From assembly GCA_016209995.1 (NCBI GenBank), contig JACQVC010000412.1, positions 1 through 12,037 of the forward strand: 12,037 nucleotides of DNA, given 5' to 3'. Below, piece after piece: positions 258 to 12,037 of the stretch; position 1 is the first letter of the stretch, and every line of letters begins with the position of its first letter. The DNA is from Gemmatimonadota bacterium. GTDB taxonomy: Bacteria; Gemmatimonadota; Gemmatimonadetes; Longimicrobiales; Gaopeijiaceae. The position numbers and the translations under genes are program-made. The notes under the pieces were generated by a model that saw only the letters and a program-made list of their open reading frames with translations, was not told the origin of the DNA and made no database searches.

Positions 258-3200
258 TCAGTAGTTCAGCGTGACGTGGAACCGCGCGAGACGCGGCGCC
301 GCGATCCCCGTGGGGGTCAGCCACGCCGCGCCGTTCGTCCGGAACTCGTAGGTCTGCTGATACGCGGTCGTCACGTTCGAGTTGAACAGATTGTAGAGGT
401 CGATGCCCACGTCGGCCCGACGGCCCGCGAAGCGGAAGATCTTCGCGAACCGCATGTCGACGAGGCTGACCCGCTGCAGCGTGTACAGCTCGCCGGGCTT
501 GAGCAGGTTCACCGTCGTCGTCCCCGTGGCGAGCGCGTTGGCCGGGAGACGCCCGAGCGACTCCTGGATCACGGTGTTCGGCACCACGTAGTTGGCGGCG
601 AGCGAGAGGCCGTTGGTGGCCACGCCGCCACCGGGCGTCGTCTCGATCGAGCGCATGCTGGCGCTCACCAGGACGTCCACCTTCGGAACGGTGTAAGTGG
701 CGAGCCCTCTGAAGGACGTCGCCCACTTCTCGGTGACATCGCAGGAGTCGACCCGGGCCGTGCCCAGCAGCTCCGGCAGGGCGCGGGTGACGTCGCACAT
801 ATCGCGCACGGCCCGTCCCGTGCTGGTGCCGGCCTGAACGGTGAGGCCGTTGGCGAGCCGCGCCCTGGCCGTGAAATCGACGCCGTGCCAGTAGGCCGTG
901 CGTGCGTCGCCGAAGTCGGTCTCTTTCGTCATGTAGCTCTGCGCGCCGCGGGCGCTCGCCGCGGGCGTGATGGCCGCGAAGGATGCCGTGCTGCCGCCGC
1001 CGGGCAGGTGCTCGTGCTGCGGGATGGCGATGGCATAGACGTCGTAGTCCGAGGCGCTCGTCAGCACGTTGTCGGTGACGAAGAAGTTCCCCCACCACCG
1101 GCGGTTGTAGCCCGCCTCGACCGAGAGCCGCGGCAGGAGCTCGTGCTGCACCGAGGCGCCGAGCTGCCAGTCGTAGGGGCGGACGCCCCAGCCGCCCAGG
1201 ATGTCCGGGTTGATCGTCGTCGTGTTGGGATTGGCGTTGCCGAAGTTCAGGTTGACGCCGCCGAGGGCCGCGCACAGGTCGCCGCCTGACGCCAGGTTGT
1301 TCTGCAGCGCCGGATTGAGCAGGTCGCAATCGACCATGAAGTTCTGGTTGCCGTCCGTCCAGCCCCGGGCGGCGCTCCCCGGCCCCGAGCCCACGCGGGT
1401 GATGATCCGCGCCGCCGGGTTGTTGGAGCTGTAGATGGCATCCGACGTGGCGGCCTCGAGGTACTTGCCGCCGTTGACCTTGAGCGCCGTCCTCCCGTTG
1501 CCGAACAGGTCATAGGCGATGCCGAACCGCGGCGTGATGTCGTTGTAGCCGCGAACGCTCACCGTCCGCTCGAACGAGATCGGCTGGGGATTGAAGCGCG
1601 AGGTGCCCGTCGTGCCGTTGCCGTCGGCCGGCGCCCAGCTCCACGCCCGGTCGTAGCGCAGGCCGCCCTGGAGCGTCAGCCGTCCGATCGTCCACTGGTC
1701 CTGCGCGTAGAGTCCCAGGGTCTGCGTCCGATCGTGCTGGTTCCACCGCGGTGCCAGGAAGTAGGACACGGCAATCGGGCACAGGCGGTTGCCGTCCACG
1801 ACCGTGCACGGCGTGGTCGCCGGTGCATTCGCGTTGAACGTGTAGCGCAGCTGCGTGTTGTTCGGCACCCGGCCGTTGTGCACTTCGGTGAACGAGCCGG
1901 TGTACCCGATCTTGAAGTTGTGGGCGCCCGTCACGTACGAGACCGCGGCGCGCCAGGACGAGTTCAGCGCGTCGTTGTCGTTGAATCCGAAGTCAAGCGG
2001 ATCGAAGACACCGCGATACGAGAAGTTCGGGCGGCCGTAGATGCCCGTCTGCTCGGTGACCGGGATGTAGTCCATCAATCCGTCCGGGGCCGCCATGCCG
2101 AACCGGCCGTACCCGTAGACGAACCGCGAGTATCCGCCCTCGATCAGCGTGCGGCTGCTGATCGGCGCCGAATACGTGGCCTGGACCGTGTGGTACGGGA
2201 AGTCGTGGTAGCCGGGAAACGTTTCGGGCGACACGGTGTCGGCACCGAAAGTCCGGCCGCTTCCGATCCAGTCGGTCCCCGCCTGGCGGCAGCCGTCGCC
2301 ATCGGACTTGAGCGTCGAGCCGCCGCAGCGCCGCTGGTAGTCGTATGAGAAGGTCACGCGGTTGCGCGGCGTGGCCTGGGCCGTGAACCGGCCGGCATAG
2401 ATCTGTCGCCCCTCCGGCTGGCGGGCCTCGATGCTGGGGTCGGCCAGGTAGTTCCACCGCGACGCGTCCCCGGCATACCGGTTGGCGAAGATCCCGGTCA
2501 CCACCGCGGCGTTGCCCCAGTTGCGGACGCTGCCGAAGAACCAGAGGCGGTCGCGGACGATCGGGCCGCCGAGGCTGACGCTGGCGTCCCAGTTGGTGCG
2601 CAGCGTGGGAGGCTGCGTGATCCCGAATCCGCGCAGGCGGTCGTCCACGTTGTTCGATGTCGCCCAGTCCCCCGACGTGCTGTAGAAGGCGGAGCCGTTG
2701 AACTGGTTCCCGCCCGACTTCGGCACGATGTTGATGCTGGGCCCGCCCGTCTCGGCCTCGCCGAGGCCGCCGGAGATGAGCACCTGCATCTCTTCCGCGT
2801 TGGCGATGTCGTAGGTGACGTCCGACACACCACCGCCGCCGAACGGCGCCGCCACCGTGAGACCGTTGGTCATCACGCGGCCCTCGCCGCTCGCGCCGCC
2901 GTGCGCCGTGAAGAACATCATCTGCGGCGTCGTCGGCGCCGTGGTGGCGCCCGCACCGGCCACGCCGCCGATATTCAGGGATGGCACGGCGGCCAGGGCG
3001 GACCCGTAGCCGCGCGTCGCCGGCAGCGAATTGAGCGTGTCGGCGTTCAGCACCACCTCGCGCCGGACCGACTGCGTGTCGACGACCGACGCCTCGCCGG
3101 AGACGGTGATCGTCTCCTGCAGCTCGCCGATGCGCAGGTCGACGTTGACGGTGATGACGCCCGAGCCCGACACCGGCAGTCCGTCACGCCTCACGGTCGT

Positions 3201-3455
3201 GAAGCCCTGGAGGGAAAACGTCACGACGTAGGTCCCCGGCGGGAGATCGGTGATGCGGTACTGTCCGGTCCCGTCGCTCACCACGGTCCGGACCTTCTGG
3301 ATGAGCGCGCGGCTCGCGGCCTCCACGGTCACGCCTGGGAGTACGGCCGACGATGCGTCCCGGACGGTGCCGGCGATCGTGGCCTGGGCAAGTGCGATAC
3401 TGGGGAACAACAGGAACCCGACGAGCGCAGCGGTTGCGTTCAGGACTCGGTGCAT
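258..3455 (-). CDS. TonB-dependent receptor, Oar-like, with carboxypeptidase-regulatory-like domain
   Basis: Outer-membrane active-transport barrel of 1065 aa. Residues 1-24 are a signal peptide ending IALAQ. Residues 26-108 form a CarboxypepD_reg-like beta-sandwich (ATIAGTVRDASSAVLPGVTV...LPPGTYVVTF...GF). A TonB-box-like ETITVSG lies at 114-120, followed by the plug (SLNIGGVAGAGATT..., INIVPKSGGNQFNGS) and a long barrel. The barrel ends DLYNLFNSN and, at the C-terminus, FHVTLNY; a terminal aromatic residue is usual for BAM-folded barrels. The start at 3455 is chosen over the upstream in-frame ATG at 3494 because GAGGAGG (3468-3462) lies 6 nt before it and the signal peptide begins there. 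The substrate is unknown: Oar-like receptors in Acidobacteriota are expanded and mostly uncharacterised, with polysaccharides, peptides or metal chelates proposed. It appears monocistronic, with a hairpin pair downstream. Confidence 0.93.
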   Translation of the reverse strand: MHRVLNATAALVGFLLFPSIALAQATIAGTVRDASSAVLPGVTVEAASRALIQKVRTVVSDGTGQYRITDLPPGTYVVTFSLQGFTTVRRDGLPVSGSGVITVNVDLRIGELQETITVSGEASVVDTQSVRREVVLNADTLNSLPATRGYGSALAAVPSLNIGGVAGAGATTAPTTPQMMFFTAHGGASGEGRVMTNGLTVAAPFGGGGVSDVTYDIANAEEMQVLISGGLGEAETGGPSINIVPKSGGNQFNGSAFYSTSGDWATSNNVDDRLRGFGITQPPTLRTNWDASVSLGGPIVRDRLWFFGSVRNWGNAAVVTGIFANRYAGDASRWNYLADPSIEARQPEGRQIYAGRFTAQATPRNRVTFSYDYQRRCGGSTLKSDGDGCRQAGTDWIGSGRTFGADTVSPETFPGYHDFPYHTVQATYSAPISSRTLIEGGYSRFVYGYGRFGMAAPDGLMDYIPVTEQTGIYGRPNFSYRGVFDPLDFGFNDNDALNSSWRAAVSYVTGAHNFKIGYTGSFTEVHNGRVPNNTQLRYTFNANAPATTPCTVVDGNRLCPIAVSYFLAPRWNQHDRTQTLGLYAQDQWTIGRLTLQGGLRYDRAWSWAPADGNGTTGTSRFNPQPISFERTVSVRGYNDITPRFGIAYDLFGNGRTALKVNGGKYLEAATSDAIYSSNNPAARIITRVGSGPGSAARGWTDGNQNFMVDCDLLNPALQNNLASGGDLCAALGGVNLNFGNANPNTTTINPDILGGWGVRPYDWQLGASVQHELLPRLSVEAGYNRRWWGNFFVTDNVLTSASDYDVYAIAIPQHEHLPGGGSTASFAAITPAASARGAQSYMTKETDFGDARTAYWHGVDFTARARLANGLTVQAGTSTGRAVRDMCDVTRALPELLGTARVDSCDVTEKWATSFRGLATYTVPKVDVLVSASMRSIETTPGGGVATNGLSLAANYVVPNTVIQESLGRLPANALATGTTTVNLLKPGELYTLQRVSLVDMRFAKIFRFAGRRADVGIDLYNLFNSNVTTAYQQTYEFRTNGAAWLTPTGIAAPRLARFHVTLNY

Positions 3456-3559
3456 ACCACGCCTCCTCGCACGGTCACGAGCGTCAACAACCAAAACTCA
3501 CGGAGGCCAACGGCAGCGGTCCGCGCTCCGCTGCGCGGCGAAAGCTCATCACAGGTGGT

Positions 3560-4042: not shown

Positions 4043-4339
4043 TGGGCGGCGAACAACGGTTGCGAGGTGACGCCTCGCGTGGCCGACGTGCGCGCGGAGG
4101 ACGAGCGGGCGGCGCGTGCGCAGCGGGGCCGCCATGCCGAACCGCACACCGTCACGAGGCTCGTGTGGGATGGCTGCCGCAAGAACGGCGCCGTCGAGCA
4201 CCTTCGACTGACCGGCGCCGGGCACGGCTGGCCCGGCGTCGAGACACCGGGGCTTCGCCGGCGTATCATCGGGGAAGGGACGACGTTGTTTCACGCCTCG
4301 GACGAGGCATGGGCCTTCTTGTCGCGGTTCGTCCGCTGA
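4043..4339 (+). pseudogene. C-terminal remnant of a PHB-depolymerase / LpqC-like esterase
   Basis: From 4043 the frame reads WAANNGCEVTPRV..., then VTRLVWDGC, LTGAGHGWPG and a C-terminal helix AWAFLSRFVR before the TGA at 4337-4339. This matches the last roughly 95 residues of the alpha/beta-hydrolase family of polyhydroxybutyrate depolymerases and feruloyl-esterase-like LpqC proteins (COG3509). In that family, WxxRNGC precedes the final strand and the GHxWPG motif carries the catalytic histidine, here at 4223-4225. The nucleophile GxSxG, the catalytic acid, the lipobox and roughly two thirds of the usual protein (about 300 aa) are absent. A GTG at 4067 could initiate, but the product would be an inactive fragment. 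The parent enzyme would be secreted; this piece marks a breakpoint near 4040. Confidence 0.72.
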
Positions 4340-4421: not shown

Positions 4422-4661
4422 ATGGCGCGCCTGTTCCGCGTGATTGTTCCCGTCGCCGACATCGCTCGAGGCGCAGCGTTCTACGCGGATCTTGTGTGCG
4501 GGCGGGCGCGTCCTTCTCGCCGGCGGTCGTTCCCGACGTGGGGCCTCTCGGTCGGATCGCGCGGCGGCCGTGGGGGCGAACGGTCATTCTACTTCCAGGA
4601 CCCGTTCGGCAATCGGCTCTGCATCGTGAGCCGCGACTCGATGTTCACGGGCCGCGCGTGA
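4422..4661 (+). pseudogene. VOC/glyoxalase-family gene with internal deletion and frameshift
   Basis: The ATG at 4422 has an AAGGAG ribosome site (4407-4412). The first 24 codons, MARLFRVIVPVADI...FYADL, are the intact first strand and helix of a vicinal-oxygen-chelate (glyoxalase I-like) protein of the usual 120-130 aa. At about 4493-4496 the homology jumps by roughly 55 residues. A second frame then gives RAGASFSPAVVPDVGPLGRI and RRPWG. At a run of five G (4572-4576) it moves back to the first frame, giving GERSFYFQDPFGN and a tail ending FTGRA. With one G fewer, the canonical PWGERSFYFQDPFGN would read through. I infer a gene that lost its middle and then, or independently, gained one base. 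The remaining open frame would give 79 aa lacking half of the metal-binding fold. It converges on the NTF2-like gene. Confidence 0.75.
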
Positions 4662-5180: not shown

Positions 5181-5275
5181 GGTTCCCCCTCCGCAAATGC
5201 CCCAATCGACGGAGCCTCATCGGTGTCCATCCGGCCTCTTTTTAGCACAGATCGGTCGCGAAAAGGTCCGGCAGC

Positions 5276-5693
5276 TCATTCCTGCCCGCCCGCGCCGTCA
5301 GCGGTCCGCGGCGCCGCCTCCGCGATACGGTCGAAATCGGCGTCGGCCTGCTCGAGCGCCGCACCGTGATGGCGGGCACACGCCTCGATGAGCGCGACGG
5401 TGGCTGGAACGGGCACGCCGGCCGCCTGGCACCGCCGGGCCAGGCCGTACGCGTCGTCCCAGACCTGGGACGCGATCGGAAGCTCCGGGATGCGCCGTTC
5501 GAATTCGCGCAGGACCTTCTTCTTCCGGTCGCCGCCGGCGCCGTTCCAAGGCTCCAGCCGGACGAGCAGACACCACCGTGCGGTGCCGGCCTCGAGCACG
5601 GCCTCCACACGCCGCCGCACCGCGGGGCCTGGGAGGCCGTCGAAGCCGGGGCGGAAGCGCCTCGAGGAGATCGAGGAGGCAGGGACGGGTGAC
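5276..5693 (-). pseudogene. Remnant of a PIN-domain (VapC-like) toxin ribonuclease
   Basis: The frame ending at 5276 contains AVRRRVEAVLEAG, WCLLVRLEPWNG, KKKVLREFERRIPELPI, VWDDAYGLARRC, VPVPATVALIEACARHHGA and DADFDRIAE. This is the order and spacing of a PIN-domain toxin that also carries the LELWNG segment. The N-terminal strand with the first catalytic aspartate is not in this frame. A CLLD remnant occurs in another frame at 5681-5670 and the SS/ALRPG-like residues follow after further shifts, so at least one small deletion has occurred. The usual PATD acidic residue is V in PATVALI; the final DADFD acidic pair remains. No antitoxin gene is recognisable upstream. Intact relatives are about 130-140 aa and cleave RNA in toxin-antitoxin pairs; this copy should be inactive. 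Confidence 0.72.
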
Positions 5694-5862
5694 GCCGAGT
5701 GGCTTCCGAGCAGGCGCCCGTGCGTTGGGACCCGTCCGTCCGCTGACCGGCCCTGGCGACTGGCTGGAGCGCATTCGCTGGGCGAACGGCAGACCCGACC
5801 GCGATCTGCGGCGCTGGTTGGGTGCAGCAACGGGCAACGGCTGGAGCGGCGTCCTGCGCTGA
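5689..5862 (+). CDS. Possible small ORF of unknown function (57 aa)
   Basis: GTG at 5689 is preceded by GAGGAGG (5673-5679) with a 9-nt gap. The frame runs 57 codons to a TGA at 5860-5862, abutting the stop of the convergent NTF2-like gene at 5863. The second half (GDWLERIRWANGRPDRDLRR, then WLGAATGNGWSG) has strong third-position GC and a balanced composition, unlike the arginine/proline-rich shadow frames around it. I do not recognise a family. The ribosome site overlaps the reverse complement of the toxin remnant, so it may be fortuitous, and the piece may instead be the 3' end of a lost gene. Confidence 0.22.
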   Translation: MTPSGFRAGARALGPVRPLTGPGDWLERIRWANGRPDRDLRRWLGAATGNGWSGVLR

Positions 5863-6372
5863 CTATCGCGGTCCCGCGGGCGCGGGAGGCGCCGTGTCGT
5901 TCGAGGCCACGCGGCGCTGGAACTTCCACGCGCCTTTCTCGCGGATGAACGTGTCGTCATAGCGCCCGGCCTGCGAGACGGCCGCGCCGCGCTCGCCGGG
6001 GACGATGAACGTCCACCGCGACCACGCCGTGGCCGTGTCGCCCTTCACGGTGATGACGAAGTTCGACATCACGTGATAGCTGCCGCCGCGGTTCGGGTCG
6101 GTGCCAAGGCTCTTCTCCATGAACGCCTGGATGTTGCGGCGCCCCTTGACGGTTCCGAAGCCGCCGGCCCATTCGCCCTCTTCCGCGAAGAGCGCCGCAT
6201 AGGCCGCGAGATCCCGGCTGTCGAGATGCCGGCCGTAGTCCACCAGGAGCTGCGCGATCTGCTCCCGGTCCTCGAGGCGCTTGACGCGCGCCTCGAGCGA
6301 ACCGGGCGACTGCGCGGCCGGCGCGGCCGCGCTCAGCACGAGCGCGAGCGCGACCAGGTGTCCTCGACTCAC
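5863..6372 (-). CDS. Exported NTF2/SnoaL-like protein, third gene of the quinoprotein operon
   Basis: A 169-aa protein starting with GTG at 6372. The GTGA overlaps the TGA of the PQQ sugar-dehydrogenase-like gene by 4 nt, so the two are probably translationally coupled; the frame stays open further upstream, but there it is antisense-free shadow of that gene. A signal peptide (VSRGHLVALALVLSAAAPAA, then QSPG) directs export. The mature part starts with a coiled helix SLEARVKRLEDREQIAQLLVDY, a form common in exported SnoaL_4/NTF2-like proteins. It continues with DLAAYAALFAEEGEWAG, KGRRNIQAFMEKSLG, SYHVMSNFVITVKGDTATAW and a final strand GAWKFQRRVASND. H100 of SYH matches H100 of the paralogue at 4680-5180. 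The role is unknown; operon position suggests an accessory or downstream hydratase/isomerase acting on the product of the periplasmic quinoproteins. Confidence 0.87.
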   Translation of the reverse strand: MSRGHLVALALVLSAAAPAAQSPGSLEARVKRLEDREQIAQLLVDYGRHLDSRDLAAYAALFAEEGEWAGGFGTVKGRRNIQAFMEKSLGTDPNRGGSYHVMSNFVITVKGDTATAWSRWTFIVPGERGAAVSQAGRYDDTFIREKGAWKFQRRVASNDTAPPAPAGPR

Positions 6373-7619
6373 TCGGCCGGCTCGATCTTCAGCATCACTG
6401 CGTCGGCCTCGTCGGTGAGGACATAGAGGAGCCCGTCGCGCCCCTGCTTCACGTCGCGCAGCCGCCGCCGCAGATCGACGAGCAGCGGCTCGCGGCGCAG
6501 CTCCTCGAGGTCCCTGTTGATCAGGATCCGGTGCAGTTGTCCCGTCCCCGGGATCTCGCCGTAGCGCATGCCGGTGACGAAGACGTCGCCCTTCCACTTC
6601 GGCAGCGCGTCGCCGGTGTAGAAGGTGATGCTCGAGACGGCGATCGCCGGCATCCAGTAGATGATCGGGTCGCGGTACCCTTCCTTCGTGAACGGTCCCT
6701 GCCACGGCCCGCCATAGGTGCGTCCGAGGCTGATGAGCGGCCAGCCGTAGTTGGTGCCGGGCGTGAGGATGTTCACCTCGTCGCCGCCGTTCGGCCCGTT
6801 CTCGATCTGCCAGATCGCGCCGGTGAGCGGGTGCTTCGCCATCCGCAGGAACGTGCGGTGGCCCATCGTGAAGACCTCGGGCCTCGCCTCGGCGTTGCCG
6901 ACGAAGGGATTGTCCGGCGGCACCTTGCCCTCGTCCGTGAGACGCAGGATCTTGCCGCCGAGCGTCTTGGTGGACTGCGTGTCGCCGCCCCCGTGCGCGA
7001 CGTAGAGCATGCCGTCGCCGCCGAACGCGATCGGCCCGCCGCTGCCGCCGGTGCCCACGAAGATGTCCCGCGTGTCGGTGAACCCCTTGCCGTCCCAGAC
7101 TGCCCGCGCCACTGCCACCGTCGTTCGCGGCGCCGCGCCTCGACCACCTCGTCCTCCAGCGGCGGGGGGCGCGGCCGGGGCGGCGGCTGGCTGATCGTCA
7201 AGCGGCTTGGTGTAGCTGATGTAGACGAGGCGATTGCGCTCGAAGTCGGGATGCAGCGCCAGGTCCGTTCCCGACAGACCAGCGCCAATCGCCCTGGGCC
7301 CGCCGGGCACCGGCTTCGGATCGACCACGCCGTTCCGCACGGCCTTGATGGCGCCGCCGCGTTCGGCCACGAGGATCGTGTCGTCCGACACGAACGCCAT
7401 GCTCCACGGGTTCTCGAAGCCGCGGGCGTACACGCTCACCTGGATGGTCTGCCCCTCGGCTGTCTCGTAGCGGACGGGCGCGGTTGGCAACGGGGGAGTC
7501 TTGATGCCCGAGGGCGCCACGGGTGTGTTGCCGCGCATCGGCACCTCCTGTTGACCCGCCAACGGGACGGTGAGAACAGCCAGAGTCACCGTGCAGAGAG
7601 GCCAGAGAAGCTTCTTCAT
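6369..7619 (-). CDS. PQQ-dependent sugar (aldose) dehydrogenase-like six-bladed propeller
   Basis: A 416-aa exported protein of the soluble GSDH/YliI family (COG2133), whose members oxidise aldoses with PQQ in the periplasm. The start at 7619 is chosen over ATG 7634 because GGAGA lies 8 nt upstream and MKKLLWPLCTVTLAVLTVPL is a signal peptide. Family landmarks are GFENPWSMAFV (68-77), DLALHPDFERN (119-129), FGGDGMLYV (199-207), LGGKILRLTDEGKVPPDNPF (220-239), GHR (253-255), NGPNGGDEVN (274-283), GTNYGWPLIS (288-297) and RLRDVKQGRDGLLYVLTDE (386-404). An Ala/Pro/Gly/Arg insert (144-163, including GGRGGRG) interrupts an early blade. At the HxGGR motif carrying the general-base histidine, this protein reads GSGGP (192-196), and GHRN is GHRT, so standard glucose-type activity is doubtful. 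Second gene of the operon: 17 nt after the cytochrome-PQQ gene and overlapping the NTF2-like gene. Confidence 0.9.
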   Translation of the reverse strand: MKKLLWPLCTVTLAVLTVPLAGQQEVPMRGNTPVAPSGIKTPPLPTAPVRYETAEGQTIQVSVYARGFENPWSMAFVSDDTILVAERGGAIKAVRNGVVDPKPVPGGPRAIGAGLSGTDLALHPDFERNRLVYISYTKPLDDQPAAAPAAPPAAGGRGGRGAAPRTTVAVARAVWDGKGFTDTRDIFVGTGGSGGPIAFGGDGMLYVAHGGGDTQSTKTLGGKILRLTDEGKVPPDNPFVGNAEARPEVFTMGHRTFLRMAKHPLTGAIWQIENGPNGGDEVNILTPGTNYGWPLISLGRTYGGPWQGPFTKEGYRDPIIYWMPAIAVSSITFYTGDALPKWKGDVFVTGMRYGEIPGTGQLHRILINRDLEELRREPLLVDLRRRLRDVKQGRDGLLYVLTDEADAVMLKIEPAE

Positions 7620-7636: not shown

Positions 7637-9538
7637 CTACTCAGTTCCAAATGCGAGCAGCACGTTGCCCGCCGACGCGCCGGCGACGATCGCGTAGCCG
7701 GAGCTGACGTAAACCATGCCGTCCACGACGACGGCGCCGGAGGTGCTGATCGCGCCGCCGCGCGCCGTGACCTTGTTGACGGTGTCGAAGTCCTGCGCCG
7801 TGTTGAACTGCCACAGCTGTGTGCCGTCGGCGCTGTTGACGGCGAAGAGCTGGCCGTCGGTCGCACCCTCGAAGACGACGCCTGGAATCGCGGTGGGCGC
7901 GGCGCCGAGTCCTGCGGTGCCGCCGCGCGCTCCTGGGGCCGTGAACAGCCACGCGTTCTCGCCGGTTGCGGCCTGCACCGCCGCCACGCCTCGCGCGCCG
8001 GTCCCGTAGTAGACCTTGCCCTCGCTGGCCGCGCCGCCCCAGACGATCGCGCCGCGGCCGCCGCGTCCGGTCGCCCCGGGCGTCGCGCCGAGCGGATTCA
8101 CGCGGAAGAGTAGCGTACCGTTGGCGTCGGGATCGAGTGCGACGACGTCGGCGTTCTTGAGGCCGACCAACAGCGGGCGTCTGCCGTCCGCCAGCGTCAC
8201 CAGGATCGGCGAGTTGCCGATGTCGAAGTCGGGCCCCATCGGGCTCGGGCACGCCTCGCTGCGCGTCGCGCCCCCGCAGCCGCCCATGAAGAGGTCGTAC
8301 TCGAGCGACCGCCACGACCAGAGGACCTTCCCCGTCTTCAGGTCCATCGCGACGACGGCATCGGTGAGCGGTGACTCGGGCGGGGTGACCGCGTCCCCCG
8401 TGCCGGCGTAGAGCGCCCCCCGCACGGGATCGATCGTCGGAGCCGCCCAGATCCCGCCGGCCGAAGGTCCGTACAACTGAACGCCGTTCGGATTCTGCTT
8501 CCACGGCTTCGGCTCGCCGACGTTGTAGGTGGCCCAGATCTGCTTGCCCGTGTTCGCGTCGAGCGCGACGATCGCGCCGCGGCTGGTGCAGCACGGGTAG
8601 TCGATGTTGCCGGCGCTGAACTCCTCGGATCCCGAGACCGGCACGTAGACGCGGCCCTCGTGGTACTTCACCGCCGCGGTGATGCGCGCCACGGGATGGT
8701 TGTCCACGCGCACGCGCCACAGCTGCCGGCCCGTCTGCGCGTCCACGGCGTGCACGTACGCGTGGCCGTCGCCGAGGAACACCGCCCATCGCGCGTTGCC
8801 GTTTCCGGACACCGGGCCGATTGTCGGCGAGTTGCGGACGATCGAGCCCTGCTGATACGACCAGTAGACGCAGCCGGTCTTCGCGTCGAGCGAATAGAGA
8901 TAGCCGTTGTCGCTTGCGGCGAAGACGCGTCCCGAGACGATGGTCGGCTGCGCGTTGTTGGACTCGCCGAACGGGAAGCCGAACGCCCACTTCAGCGTCA
9001 GCTTCGGCACGTTCGCCGCGTCCAGGCGCGCCGCCGCCGTCTGGAACCGCGTGTTCGCCAGGTCGTGGCTCCAGCCGTTCCAGCCGGGCGACTGCGCGGG
9101 ATCCGTCATCGGCGGGTTCGCGCGGCACTGATTGGGCATGTCCTTCGCGTCGGCGGCGTTCGTGCTGCCGAGCGGCCGTCCGCCCATGAACTCGCCCACG
9201 CGGCGCGCCTGGATGTCGCTCAGCGTGCGGCCCTGGTGCGTCTTGCCCTGCAGCGCCGCGTTGATCCGCTCCGGCGTCATCGCCCGGATTTCAGCGGTCA
9301 TCGGCGCCGTGCCGATGCGGGTCACGACGCCGTGGCAGCCGGCGCACTGGGTTTGAAACGTGGACCAGCCCGTTTCCGTGCCCGGTATCCCGCCGCCGCG
9401 GCCAGCCCCCGGCTGGGCTGGGGGAGTGGCAGCCCCCTGCGGTGCCGCCGGAGCCTGCGCGCCGAGAAACGCCGCGCTCGTGAAAACAAGGATGGCCAGC
9501 GCGCCGCAGACCGCGGCCGCGAATCGATTGCGTCCCAT
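7637..9538 (-). CDS. Cytochrome c / PQQ beta-propeller dehydrogenase, polyvinyl-alcohol-dehydrogenase-like
   Basis: A 633-aa periplasmic quinohemoprotein. A signal peptide occupies residues 1-27 (MGRNRFAAAVCGALAILVFT...FLGAQ), followed by an Ala/Pro/Gly linker. A cytochrome c-like domain carries CAGCH (65-69), with M118 as a possible axial ligand. From about 150 an eight-bladed quinoprotein propeller begins: GWNGWSHDLANTRFQ (152-166), LKWAFGFPFG (182-191), ALDANTGKQIW (325-335) and MDLKTGKVLWSW (398-409). PCCTSRG (315-321) has vicinal cysteines, as in PQQ alcohol dehydrogenases, where they form a disulfide ring over PQQ. GPDFDIGNSPIL (435-446) matches the PVADH-type family, which oxidises secondary alcohols and passes electrons through heme c. 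The true substrate is unknown. The start at 9538 has no strong ribosome site, but the signal peptide begins there; frame extension to 10021 runs antisense to another gene. First gene of a three-gene operon. Confidence 0.9.
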   Translation of the reverse strand: MGRNRFAAAVCGALAILVFTSAAFLGAQAPAAPQGAATPPAQPGAGRGGGIPGTETGWSTFQTQCAGCHGVVTRIGTAPMTAEIRAMTPERINAALQGKTHQGRTLSDIQARRVGEFMGGRPLGSTNAADAKDMPNQCRANPPMTDPAQSPGWNGWSHDLANTRFQTAAARLDAANVPKLTLKWAFGFPFGESNNAQPTIVSGRVFAASDNGYLYSLDAKTGCVYWSYQQGSIVRNSPTIGPVSGNGNARWAVFLGDGHAYVHAVDAQTGRQLWRVRVDNHPVARITAAVKYHEGRVYVPVSGSEEFSAGNIDYPCCTSRGAIVALDANTGKQIWATYNVGEPKPWKQNPNGVQLYGPSAGGIWAAPTIDPVRGALYAGTGDAVTPPESPLTDAVVAMDLKTGKVLWSWRSLEYDLFMGGCGGATRSEACPSPMGPDFDIGNSPILVTLADGRRPLLVGLKNADVVALDPDANGTLLFRVNPLGATPGATGRGGRGAIVWGGAASEGKVYYGTGARGVAAVQAATGENAWLFTAPGARGGTAGLGAAPTAIPGVVFEGATDGQLFAVNSADGTQLWQFNTAQDFDTVNKVTARGGAISTSGAVVVDGMVYVSSGYAIVAGASAGNVLLAFGTE

Positions 9539-9565
9539 ATGGATCAGAGTATAGGTTAGTGGCCT
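9539..9565. promoter_or_regulatory. 27-bp divergent promoter region with overlapping -10 elements
   Basis: Only 27 bp separate the start codons of the cytochrome-PQQ gene (minus) and the NTF2-like gene (plus). The minus strand has TATACT at 9553-9548; initiation about 7 nt later falls at 9541-9540, one or two bases before the ATG. The plus strand has TATAGG at 9550-9555, whose start would fall near 9562, four bases before the ATG at 9566. Neither gene has a clear Shine-Dalgarno. The -35 regions would lie inside the opposing genes and are not consensus. This points to leaderless or near-leaderless divergent transcripts, by inference. Confidence 0.4.
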
Positions 9566-10119: not shown

Positions 10120-10521
10120 TCAGCGCGCCCGCTGGCGGTTCTTGAACTCGACGACGATGCTCTCGGCGAGCCCCTGGCCGACGTTCCGCGGCGCGTGCGA
10201 CGTGGCGTCGCCGCAGAACACCTGACCGGCCTTGCTCTCGGACACCGGACCGTTGCCGTCCCTGAGCGACGAGTCGGTGATCTCGATCGCGCAGTAGGCC
10301 GCGTGCGCGTGGGCCGGCGCGCTCTCTCCGGCAGGCAGCCGGACGCGCAGCACCCGCACGATGTCGTCCTCGAACTCCACGGTGTAGTGCCGGGCGTCGG
10401 CGGTGACGGCGTCGGGCAGCTTCTGCGCCGCCGACTGGGCGATGGGCGAGTCGGCGAACGTGGTGAGCGCCAGCACGACGAGCAGGGTGCCGATGCGCAG
10501 TTCTCTGCGTGTGCGCGTCAT
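10120..10521 (-). CDS. Small exported cupin-fold protein
   Basis: A 133-aa protein with a signal peptide (MTRTRRELRIGTLLVVLALT, cleavage near AQS at 28-30). The mature part is one cupin barrel: YTVEFEDDIVRVLRVRLPAG (46-65), then PAHAHAAYCAIEITDSSLRD (69-88), SESKAGQVFCGDATSHAPRN (94-113) and ESIVVEFK (120-127). H71, H73 and H109 sit where cupins bind a metal, but the usual motif-1 glutamate is not obvious. It could be a binding protein or a small oxygenase/isomerase; no reaction can be assigned. GGAGG lies 11 nt before the chosen ATG; an in-frame ATG at 10539 (MEALTHM...) is the alternative but weakens the signal peptide. A -10-like TATCAT and a palindrome lie just upstream. The much longer open frame to 11028 crosses other gene remnants. 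Confidence 0.82.
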   Translation of the reverse strand: MTRTRRELRIGTLLVVLALTTFADSPIAQSAAQKLPDAVTADARHYTVEFEDDIVRVLRVRLPAGESAPAHAHAAYCAIEITDSSLRDGNGPVSESKAGQVFCGDATSHAPRNVGQGLAESIVVEFKNRQRAR

Positions 10522-10540
10522 GTGTGTCAGAGCCTCCATG

Positions 10541-10556
10541 TCATCGGCCGATGATA
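10541..10556 (-). promoter_or_regulatory. Putative cupin promoter -10 overlapped by a 14-bp palindrome
   Basis: TATCAT (10556-10551, minus strand) is a five-of-six match to the -10 consensus and would place initiation near 10544, leaving a leader of about 23 nt that contains GGAGG. TCATCGGCCGATGA (10541-10554) is a perfect palindrome covering the -10 and the predicted start point, as expected for a repressor operator. No good -35 is visible. Confidence 0.4.
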
Positions 10557-10607
10557 CGCCGTGCCGAACCACACAGGACGTGCTGGTCGTCGATCGCGTT
10601 TTCGCTT

Positions 10608-10751
10608 TCACTTGGGATCCAGCGCGAAGGTATAGACCATTGGCGGCGTTCCGCCGCGGCCCGTGCCGCCCATGAACGAGATCTGCTGCCGCCCGGCGAC
10701 CTGATACGTGATCGGCGGGCCCATCCCGGTCTGGCCGGTCTGATGTTCCCA
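10608..10751 (-). pseudogene. C-terminal remnant of a second PQQ quinoprotein
   Basis: The minus frame from 10751 reads WEHQTGQTGMGPPITYQVAG, then RQQISFMGG, a GRGGTP insert and MVYTFALDPK before the TGA at 10608-10610. This is the closing part of a membrane or periplasmic quinoprotein dehydrogenase, where the family typically reads WxFQTGxxxxxxPITYxVDGKQYxAV and ends VYxFALP. It is a different subfamily from the intact quinoprotein at 7637-9538, which ends differently. Everything before the tryptophan (roughly 550-650 residues in relatives) is missing. The homology stops exactly where a TRAP-transporter fragment begins on the other strand. Confidence 0.75.
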
Positions 10752-10752
10752 G

Positions 10753-10959
10753 ATGATCGTGGTCGTGGTCGAAATCGGCCTGATCACGCCGCCGGTGGGC
10801 ATGAACCTGTTCGTGATCCGCGCGCAGCAGCCCGACATCGCGATCGCGACGCTCTACCGGGGCGTCACGCCGTTCCTCGTGGCGAACGCCGTGCTGTTCG
10901 CCCTCCTCCTGGCGTTCCCCGATCTCGCGCTCCGGCTGCCCCGCCTGCTGTTCGGTTGA
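10753..10959 (+). pseudogene. dctM: C-terminal remnant of a TRAP transporter large permease (DctM)
   Basis: The frame reads MIVVVVEIGLITPPVGMNLF, then VIRAQQPDIAIATLYRGVTP, then a hydrophobic helix (FLVANAVLFALLLAFPDLAL) and a stop at 10957-10959. VVEIGLITPPVGMN is the hallmark near the end of DctM, the 12-13 helix subunit (about 430 aa) of TRAP transporters that import C4-dicarboxylates and other organic acids using a sodium gradient and a periplasmic binding protein. Only the last roughly 68 residues (two membrane segments) remain. No DctP or DctQ gene is in the window. The initiating-looking ATG at 10753 is almost certainly an internal codon of the parent gene. Confidence 0.82.
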
Positions 10960-11048
10960 CGCCCCGCGCGCGTCCGGGATCGCCATCACCGTTCGTGGAA
11001 CGTGAGAGGCCTGGCCGGGGCGTGCCACGCGGTCGAGACCATTGCCAG

Positions 11049-11237
11049 GCCGATTTCCGGATCGGCAAGAACGTCAGGTACGGCCGGACGCGCGCGTTGA
11101 TTGCGCGCGATGTGTTCAACCTGTTCAACTCGAGCACGCCGGACGTGTACCAACAGGCCTACGGGGCCGCGTATCTGAATCCCCTGTCGATCACGGTGGC
11201 GCGGCTCTTCAAGCTCAGCGCGCAGTTCGACTTCTAG
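11049..11237 (+). pseudogene. C-terminal remnant of a second TonB-dependent receptor
   Basis: The last 62 codons before the TAG at 11235-11237 read ADFRIGKNVRYG, LIARDVFNLFNSSTPDVYQQ, AAYLNP and VARLFKLSAQFDF. This parallels the end of the intact receptor at 258-3455, which has DMRFAKIFR, DLYNLFNS, YQQTYE, LTPTGI and a final aromatic strand. It is therefore the last two to three barrel strands of a paralogous Oar-like receptor. The plug, the regulatory domain and most of the barrel are missing. Upstream of about 11049 the frame is open but not receptor-like; it starts 90 bp after the DctM remnant stop. Confidence 0.8.
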
Positions 11238-11280
11238 AGGCTCGTCGCCGCGATCGGCCACCCGCGCGTCGTAGAGCGTG

Positions 11281-11400
11281 CCCGGCTACTACACTGGCTA
11301 CGGCGTCAAGACGCTGCCGGGCGTGCGGGAGGCCATGGAAGCGGGGGAGTGGGAGGCATGCGGACGTCGGTCTGGAGGCTCGACGGGTCGGCGACGCTGA
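11281..11400 (+). pseudogene. Short remnant of an M28/transferrin-receptor-like peptidase
   Basis: The frame reads PGYYTGYGVKTLPGVREAME, then AGEWEA, then unrelated GRRSGGSTGRRR to a TGA at 11398-11400. PGxYTGYGVKTLPGVREAIE is, from memory, the signature near the C-terminus of bacterial M28 peptidases with a transferrin-receptor-like dimerisation domain (glutamate carboxypeptidase II type, usually 700-750 aa and exported). A TAG at 11272-11274 closes the frame upstream, so only about 26 residues survive. A possible continuation with ADVGLEARRVGDADQVRVG occurs one frame over, suggesting a further indel. Confidence 0.6.
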
Positions 11401-11471
11401 CCAGGTCCGGGTAGGTGCCCGATTGCGCCCACCGTGGCCGCGGCCGCTATCGCGGCGCCTGTGTCATTCAT
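11298..11471 (-). CDS. Possible truncated gene start of unknown function (57 codons)
   Basis: The ATG at 11471 (minus) has AAGGAG 7 nt upstream, an excellent ribosome site, and lies 66 nt after the inferred original stop of the serine hydrolase gene on the same strand. The first 24 residues (MNDTGAAIAAAATVGAIGHL then PGPG) are plausible protein. After that the frame becomes arginine/proline/histidine-rich and overlaps the peptidase remnant on the other strand. I read it as the 5' end of a gene cut off near 11400 by rearrangement. I do not recognise the family. Confidence 0.3.
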   Translation of the reverse strand: MNDTGAAIAAAATVGAIGHLPGPGQRRRPVEPPDRRPHASHSPASMASRTPGSVLTP

Positions 11472-11537
11472 GCCTGCACTCCTTCCTGTGTTCCGCCACA
11501 GTCCGACGGCGCGACCTTGGTGGCGGCGCGCGGCCCT

Positions 11538-12037
11538 TCAATCCACCAGGGCCTGGTAGATGAGCGTCTGTTACCTTGTCCAGTAGGGCCGTGTTATTGG
11601 GCCAGAGCTGGGCCATGATCACGTAGGCCATGTCCTCCATCGGGTCGACGCGGAAGACCGTCGTGGCGGCGCCGCCCCAACCGAAGCTCCCGACGGAATC
11701 CAACCGGCCCAGGGCCGCGGGGTCCAGGGTGACGGAGACGCCCAGGCCGTAACCGGTCGCGGCCGGGCCGGTCCCGTTGTTGATGGAGGGAATGCCGGCC
11801 GGCAGGTGGTTCCGCGCCATCAACTCGACCGTCTTCTTGCCCAGGATGCGGACACCATCCAGTTCCCCGCCATTGAGCAGCATCCGGGCGAAGGTCAGAT
11901 AGTCGCCGGCGGAGGAGGACAGGCTCAGCGTGCCGAACGCGTGATTGGTGTAACGAGCATAGGCATCGCCTTCCTCCGCCCGCAGGCCGCCTTCGCCGTC
12001 GGGCCGATGGACCCGCGCAAAGCGGTGAGCCTGGGCC
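11538..12037 (-). CDS. Class-C beta-lactamase-like serine hydrolase, partial, with C-terminal frameshift
   Basis: C-terminal part of a beta-lactamase/transpeptidase-like esterase (COG1680); the 5' end is beyond the right edge. Visible are AEEGDAYARYTNHAFGTLSL, then SSSAGDYLTFARMLLNGGEL, RILGKKTVELMARNHLP, TGYGLGVSVTLDP, FGWGGAATTVFRVDPMEDMA and IMAQLWPN. GWGG takes the place of the HTG/KTG motif that lines the active site; SxxK and YxN are upstream of the window. At GGTAACAG (11575-11568) the frame shifts. Removing one A gives DKVQTLIYQALVD and a TGA at 11538-11540, the normal family ending, whereas the uncorrected frame runs to 11464 with an arginine-rich tail. The change affects only about 10 residues, so the protein may still fold, or it may be a sequencing error. 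In this family cytoplasmic, periplasmic and lipid-anchored members all exist. Confidence 0.78.

Follow-up and report, generated by a model that had tools for sequence, protein, structure and literature searches.

Scraps of four unrelated gene families lie packed within about 750 bp (10608–11358) of the contig analysed here, and we propose that this stretch is probably a relic left by the serial deletion of dispensable genes, an ordinary gene graveyard. The window, by which we mean the whole stretch of DNA analysed (12037 bases), is the entire contig C361 of a draft genome of 556 contigs and 3.0 Mb that is 76% complete and 1.8% contaminated; about 680 bp remain between the final mosaic piece and the end of the contig. 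A sequence-only reading had described a mosaic of truncated genes in less than 900 bp, naming a quinoprotein C-terminus on the minus strand and, on the plus strand, C-termini of DctM and a TonB receptor and a piece of an M28-type peptidase. Homology searches of each segment bore out all four names, with families matched on adjoining stretches at E values from 1e-4 (M28, Pfam) to 2e-16 (quinoprotein). On these matches, we judge the adjacency to be beyond chance. The pieces and the stretches between and beside them are as follows.

10608 to about 10752, minus strand: 3′ end of a PQQ-type quinoprotein gene, stop codon kept, 5′ part gone (60–64% identity to P0001 and P0002)
10753–10959, plus strand: 3′ end of a TRAP-transporter large permease (DctM) gene, stop codon kept, most of the gene gone (PF06808)
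10960–11045, no strand: 86 bases without assignment between the DctM and TonB pieces (blastx TonB matches begin at 11046 or later)
11046–11237, plus strand: 3′ end of a gene for a TonB-dependent receptor, the final 63 codons plus the stop (C-termini of receptors of the same genome)
11238–11277, no strand: 40 bases without assignment between the TonB and M28 pieces (no match found)
About 11278–11358, plus strand: internal piece, near the 3′ end and without a stop, of an M28 peptidase gene of the glutamate carboxypeptidase II type (PF04253)
11359–11471, minus strand: stretch without an assigned family, possible gene start at 11471 (sequence reading, site resembling a ribosome-binding site)
11464–12037, minus strand: gene for a beta-lactamase-family serine hydrolase, 3′ part, running off the end of the contig (PF00144)

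The quinoprotein piece is 60–64% identical to two PQQ-repeat proteins (PF01011) over their last part and aligns with positions 498–529 of 530 of TIGR03075 (E 0.0017, below cut-off); a Pfam scan of it gave no match. The DctM piece covers positions 357–412 of 413 of PF06808 (E 2.7e-8, above the curated cut-off) and 344–405 of 405 of TIGR00786 (E 4.7e-10, below the whole-protein cut-off). The junction between these two pieces, at about 10752, is nearly free of spacer, one homology ending within a few bases of the start of the other. The TonB piece, which had no match in the Pfam scan, is 36–42% identical to the last 62–69 residues of five large receptor frames found in this genome (879–1078 aa), with E values of 7e-10 to 9e-14 against these frames and 1.6e-5 to 3e-11 genome-wide. 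The M28 piece matches positions 76–101 of 121 of PF04253 (E 1e-4, below the curated cut-off) and is 75–88% identical to relatives at 12 of the 12 loci with a hit, where the frames run 28–40 codons further; it is internal and without a stop codon.

A possible gene 5′ end on the minus strand had also been suggested. An ATG preceded by the ribosome-site-like AGGAAGGAG can be read at 11471 on that strand, but for this possible fifth piece (11298–11471, minus) the longer frame scanned, at 11301–11537 (minus), had no family match in the Pfam scan; peptide matches for the piece were judged spurious and no homologue was found. A 46-bp, 85% DNA match of 11366–11409 to contig C384 of the same genome was gapped and unsupported by any window frame, and was dropped as chance; a tblastx listing was set aside as noise. 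The serine hydrolase aligns with positions 189–315 of 329 of PF00144 (E 3.4e-9) and is 37–50% identical to relatives and to paralogues in its own genome, save for one weak hit at 25%. Its last codons (11538–11570) seem to be shifted into another frame, judging from the sequence and from tails compared by eye. On the other side, between the start of a cupin-like gene and the mosaic, lies a perfect 14-bp palindrome (10541–10554) that is absent from the other loci compared.

As expected of gene remnants, the pieces are truncated homologues of genes that are intact in relatives. M28 frames are at least 553 aa long at 11 of the 12 loci with a hit (the 12th is cut by a contig end), DctM frames at least 313 aa in 46 of the 47 matches besides the window's own (the remaining one is at a contig edge) and quinoprotein frames 576 aa or more in 38 of 40 other matches. 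The two exceptions are a 55-aa fragment in genome G126 and a frame of 177 aa close to the start of its contig. Intact TonB receptors exist in the same genome, two of the five compared frames being cut by contig ends. The claim that no piece has a partner in the window needs qualifying: an intact TonB receptor (258–3494, minus), 36% identical to the piece at its tail, and an intact PQQ-type protein (7640–9541, minus) are both present, but these appear to be diverged paralogues and not parents. Searches of the assembled part of the genome (the region at the DNA level, the quinoprotein and the TonB piece) found no near-identical parent, and no known homologue seems close enough to be the direct parent of any piece.

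The DctM piece has different kin. Its identity reaches at most 47% in the same phylum (40 other genomes with a match, 394 others searched). Among the matches listed, the best named relative, at 71%, is a metagenome-assembled genome named Rhodospirillales (alphaproteobacterial), and Bradyrhizobium and Beijerinckiaceae records stand at 65–66%; metagenome proteins reach 81%. At 90% clustering of 5.8 billion proteins, the 68-aa DctM frame is a singleton (one member, one contig), its next relative being 81% identical. Plasmid records matching the region number 49; for each of the best 20 of the 49 the match falls on the DctM stretch, carrying a TRAP permease annotation in 19 and no annotation in 1. 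By these similarities the closest kin of the DctM piece appear to be Alphaproteobacteria, as would be expected of a failed transfer, and its gene was perhaps horizontally acquired.

We suggest that an ancestral row of genes, all of them dispensable, comprised quinoprotein (minus), DctM (plus), TonB receptor (plus), M28 peptidase (plus) and serine hydrolase (minus), and that several independent deletions wore it down. At the junction near 10752, two divergently read genes would meet by their inner ends, the outcome expected of a single deletion across a divergent pair; the junctions that follow along the stretch would reflect loss of the TonB gene's 5′ part and of most of the M28 gene. At least one of the deleted genes was perhaps acquired horizontally. 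The remaining stretch would be non-coding, without visible function. That deletions made the junctions, the order of the ancestral row and the silence of what remains are what we infer from the pieces themselves, whose identity, orientation and truncation are observed.

Comparison with relatives, which the sequence-only reading had proposed as a way to intact parents, supplied intact homologues but neither a shared junction nor the assumed order. No match spanned a junction in 38 other relatives (best 11 candidates or fewer scored per genome) or in the other 120 family genomes (best two or fewer per genome), no less-deleted version of the mosaic was found in the family genomes (again best two or fewer candidates per genome), and viral contigs did not carry the junction pattern. 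Where a genome does match two pieces, as a few do, the two matches lie apart; in G003, G020 and G116, for example, M28 and hydrolase lie on different contigs. Across 284 loci, with this contig's excluded, the assumed order occurred in none, and DctM lay beside a quinoprotein, TonB or M28 homologue in 0 of 100 DctM loci; the assumed order is therefore unsupported by relatives. Quinoprotein and hydrolase occur together in 12 of the 284 loci. At L020, L022, L025 and other loci of genus g37, the two homologies share one open frame, apparently a fused protein, in stop-to-stop frames of around 960–1225 aa. TonB lies beside serine hydrolase, among the 284 loci, only on contig C240 of the same genome. 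On C240 (locus L048, 2670–7093), a TonB receptor (plus) and a beta-lactamase-family hydrolase (minus) converge, their ends separated by about 78 bp in our own gene calls; both families also make up part of the mosaic's right half. As for the flanks, homologues of the SnoaL-type neighbour gene in seven other genomes are 27–32% identical and their loci carry none of the pieces; this gene belongs to a cluster of three sequences, the longest listed contig of which (1015 bp) is too short to reach the mosaic. The cupin neighbour gene has no relative in the genome contigs searched, and no genome of the same genus was among the relatives compared.

Decay of this kind is not confined to the mosaic. A second cluster of remnants, absent from the sequence-only reading, sits 4 kb inside the contig (4136–4661), and a clipped VapC gene lies about 0.6 kb beyond its glyoxalase-type member.

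4136–4339, plus strand: 3′ end of an esterase or PHA-depolymerase-like gene, stop kept, second cluster (NF050058)
4422–4661, plus strand: glyoxalase (VOC)-type gene, both ends present, middle lost, second cluster (PF18029, PF00903)
5279–5695, minus strand: VapC/PIN-type gene without about its first 20–28 residues (NF047959, PF01850)

The esterase piece aligns with positions 223–275 of 276 of NF050058 (E 1.5e-4, below cut-off; no Pfam match) and is 42–55% identical to relatives with open frames of 336–989 aa. In the glyoxalase-type gene, residues 7–41 correspond to PF18029 positions 2–36 of 106 and residues 51–68 to PF00903 positions 105–121 of 121, both weak matches below cut-off; the VapC/PIN-type gene matches NF047959 at 20–122 of 125 (E 7.6e-7) and PF01850 at 29–119 of 120, both also below cut-off. 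On contig C130 of the same genome (L287, 1917–2145, plus), all that is left of a TonB gene is three collinear pieces, each in a different frame, in a span of 230 bp, corresponding to residues 28–45, 120–144 and 864–900 of a 900-aa frame; a gene has thus been reduced to in-order pieces at one spot. In the single-contig relative G022, of which 800 kb of 2.89 Mb were examined, one intergenic gap (201627–202016) holds a 143-bp 5′ end of one gene (95%) abutting a 28-bp 3′ end of another (100%), and a second gap (179066–179651) holds pieces of two genes, one being the gap's neighbour. A Pfam scan of 20 gap open reading frames of G022 found one truncated domain (peptidase S58, 264–305 of 307), plus small genes and one transposase. 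In our own-genome survey, 79 gaps were drawn from 22 contigs (171641 bases, gene coverage 0.879), five N-reading contigs being set aside. The blastx gap survey undercounts, because of the four mosaic pieces it recovered just the TonB one. In a DNA-level control, gaps held at most two parent genes each, versus four families in the mosaic's 750 bp. A further arrangement was seen on the minus strand of L293 (G126, contig C7; about 4071–4310 and 5199–6887), where an intact quinoprotein gene is followed by a putative VapBC-like pair (named from sequence) and then by a 240-bp copy of the quinoprotein 3′ end (89%); a gene end is thus present in duplicate next to a small insert, a pattern that integrating elements can produce.

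The sequence-only reading had left open whether the site arose by repeated deletion or as a landing site. Deletion decay is supported by the C130 relic, the second cluster, the clipped VapC and the G022 mosaics, and the intact homologues elsewhere and the native look of the contig also count for it; the lack of a less-deleted relative, the lack of a locus with the assumed order and a density above that of control gaps count against it. That a recombination landing site, whether cassette-like or the target of an integrative element, collected gene 3′ ends here is very improbable. Three of the four mosaic pieces, as well as the esterase and VapC remnants, do keep 3′ ends, and the copy in G126 shows that 3′-end duplication beside an insert occurs in the family. 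But the M28 piece is without its 3′ end, scans of the region found no tRNA and no Rfam RNA family, no promoter- or terminator-like site was found in 10500–11700, and the junctions have no repeat family in common, only short two-copy repeats. No integrase was present among the subset of window open reading frames scanned, and the recurrent recombination site and integrase that together mark an integron or cassette array were thus not seen. Short inverted repeats are mildly enriched around the mosaic, among them pairs of 12–13 nt at 10965/11084 and 10771/11046; at least as many occur in 5 of 500 Markov shuffles and in 26 of 640 real control windows, and elsewhere on the contig three stretches match or exceed the count. 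Selective loss of 5′ ends as a general rule was not upheld, the control counts being inconsistent. At the DNA level, 19 gap pieces (15 from G022, 3 from G004 and 1 from the window's own genome, several adjoining their own parent gene) divided into 4 that hold a 5′ end, 6 that hold a 3′ end, of which one lies at a contig edge, and 9 that are internal. A protein-level listing of 30 rows, counted by hand, which excludes continuation and contig-edge rows and includes the window's own piece and domain matches in small intact genes, gave 9 C-terminal, 4 N-terminal and 17 internal. The evidence for a general 3′-end bias is therefore mixed: no bias is seen at the DNA level, and one is weakly suggested at the protein level.

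The strongest competitor of serial deletion, though an unlikely one, is an assembly chimera, in which short sequences of different organisms were joined near the contig end by the assembler or during library making. The fragmented, incomplete bin, the position of the mosaic less than 700 bp from the end of a window that is a whole contig, the alphaproteobacterial look of the DctM piece with its singleton frame, the apparent shift of frame in the last hydrolase codons and the absence of the assumed order from all 284 loci would fit such joining. A chimera with four junctions in 750 bp, however, would need read support at each of them. Remnants also lie 4 kb inside the contig, and two-gene mosaics are present in a genome assembled as a single contig. 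Nor are contig ends generally junk, as terminal kilobases are nearly as gene-dense as interiors: in 30 unmasked contigs of the genome, some picked for their hits, the coding-like share was 85.7% (51408 of 60000 bases) at the ends versus 87.8% (158255 of 180253) inside. The contig itself looks native to its genome by sequence measures, since the receptor subfamily of the TonB piece has nine matches in its own genome (the piece counted) and none in six relatives at equal cut-off, and since its tetranucleotide profile fits the bin (r 0.912 against the other contigs compared). This value lies inside the range of the 30 unmasked contigs (0.766–0.963; for these others the reference includes the contig itself), and the contig's correlations with G022 (0.869) and G004 (0.861) are both below it.

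Less probable still is the capture at one spot of short foreign or ectopic DNA, through end-joining repair or uptake of fragmented DNA, with pieces that were never neighbours. The pieces, 80–210 bp long, do have differing kin (DctM alphaproteobacterial, TonB of an own-genome subfamily, M28 like that of family members), those searches found no near-identical parent in the assembled part of the genome and none of the 284 loci has the pieces as neighbours; the absence of the assumed order indeed shifts the balance slightly from deletion towards both chimera and capture. Against capture, three of the four pieces have their own stop codon, which would be rare for random fragments, deletion suffices for the C130 pieces, which come from one gene and lie in order, and a foreign-looking piece is equally explained by failed transfer of a whole gene followed by decay. 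It is correspondingly improbable that the site is a hotspot at which short, partly foreign pieces were captured serially and that such mosaics record failed transfers in uncultured bacteria.

Serial deletion would place the mosaic among gene remnants of a kind already on record. For Shewanella MR-1 the Pseudofinder paper (PMC9336565) gives 238 intergenic remnants, and for Sodalis 305; like those described there, the pieces here are truncated or degraded intergenic gene pieces found by translated search, and they differ in that four families adjoin in 750 bp, in a draft genome. With pseudogenes from failed horizontal transfer (PMC522871), the mosaic shares a DctM piece whose nearest named kin appear to be Alphaproteobacteria, outside the same-phylum genomes searched, the transfer here being putative. 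The C130 relic is alike in that a large gene was cut to short in-order pieces at one spot, and different in having one parent gene, against four in the window. Were capture after all the true history, such spots would be an archive of short-DNA uptake in uncultured bacteria. The mosaic warns annotators against taking short frames, like the 68-codon DctM tail, for genes, and it is an example of how little of a bacterial gene can remain.
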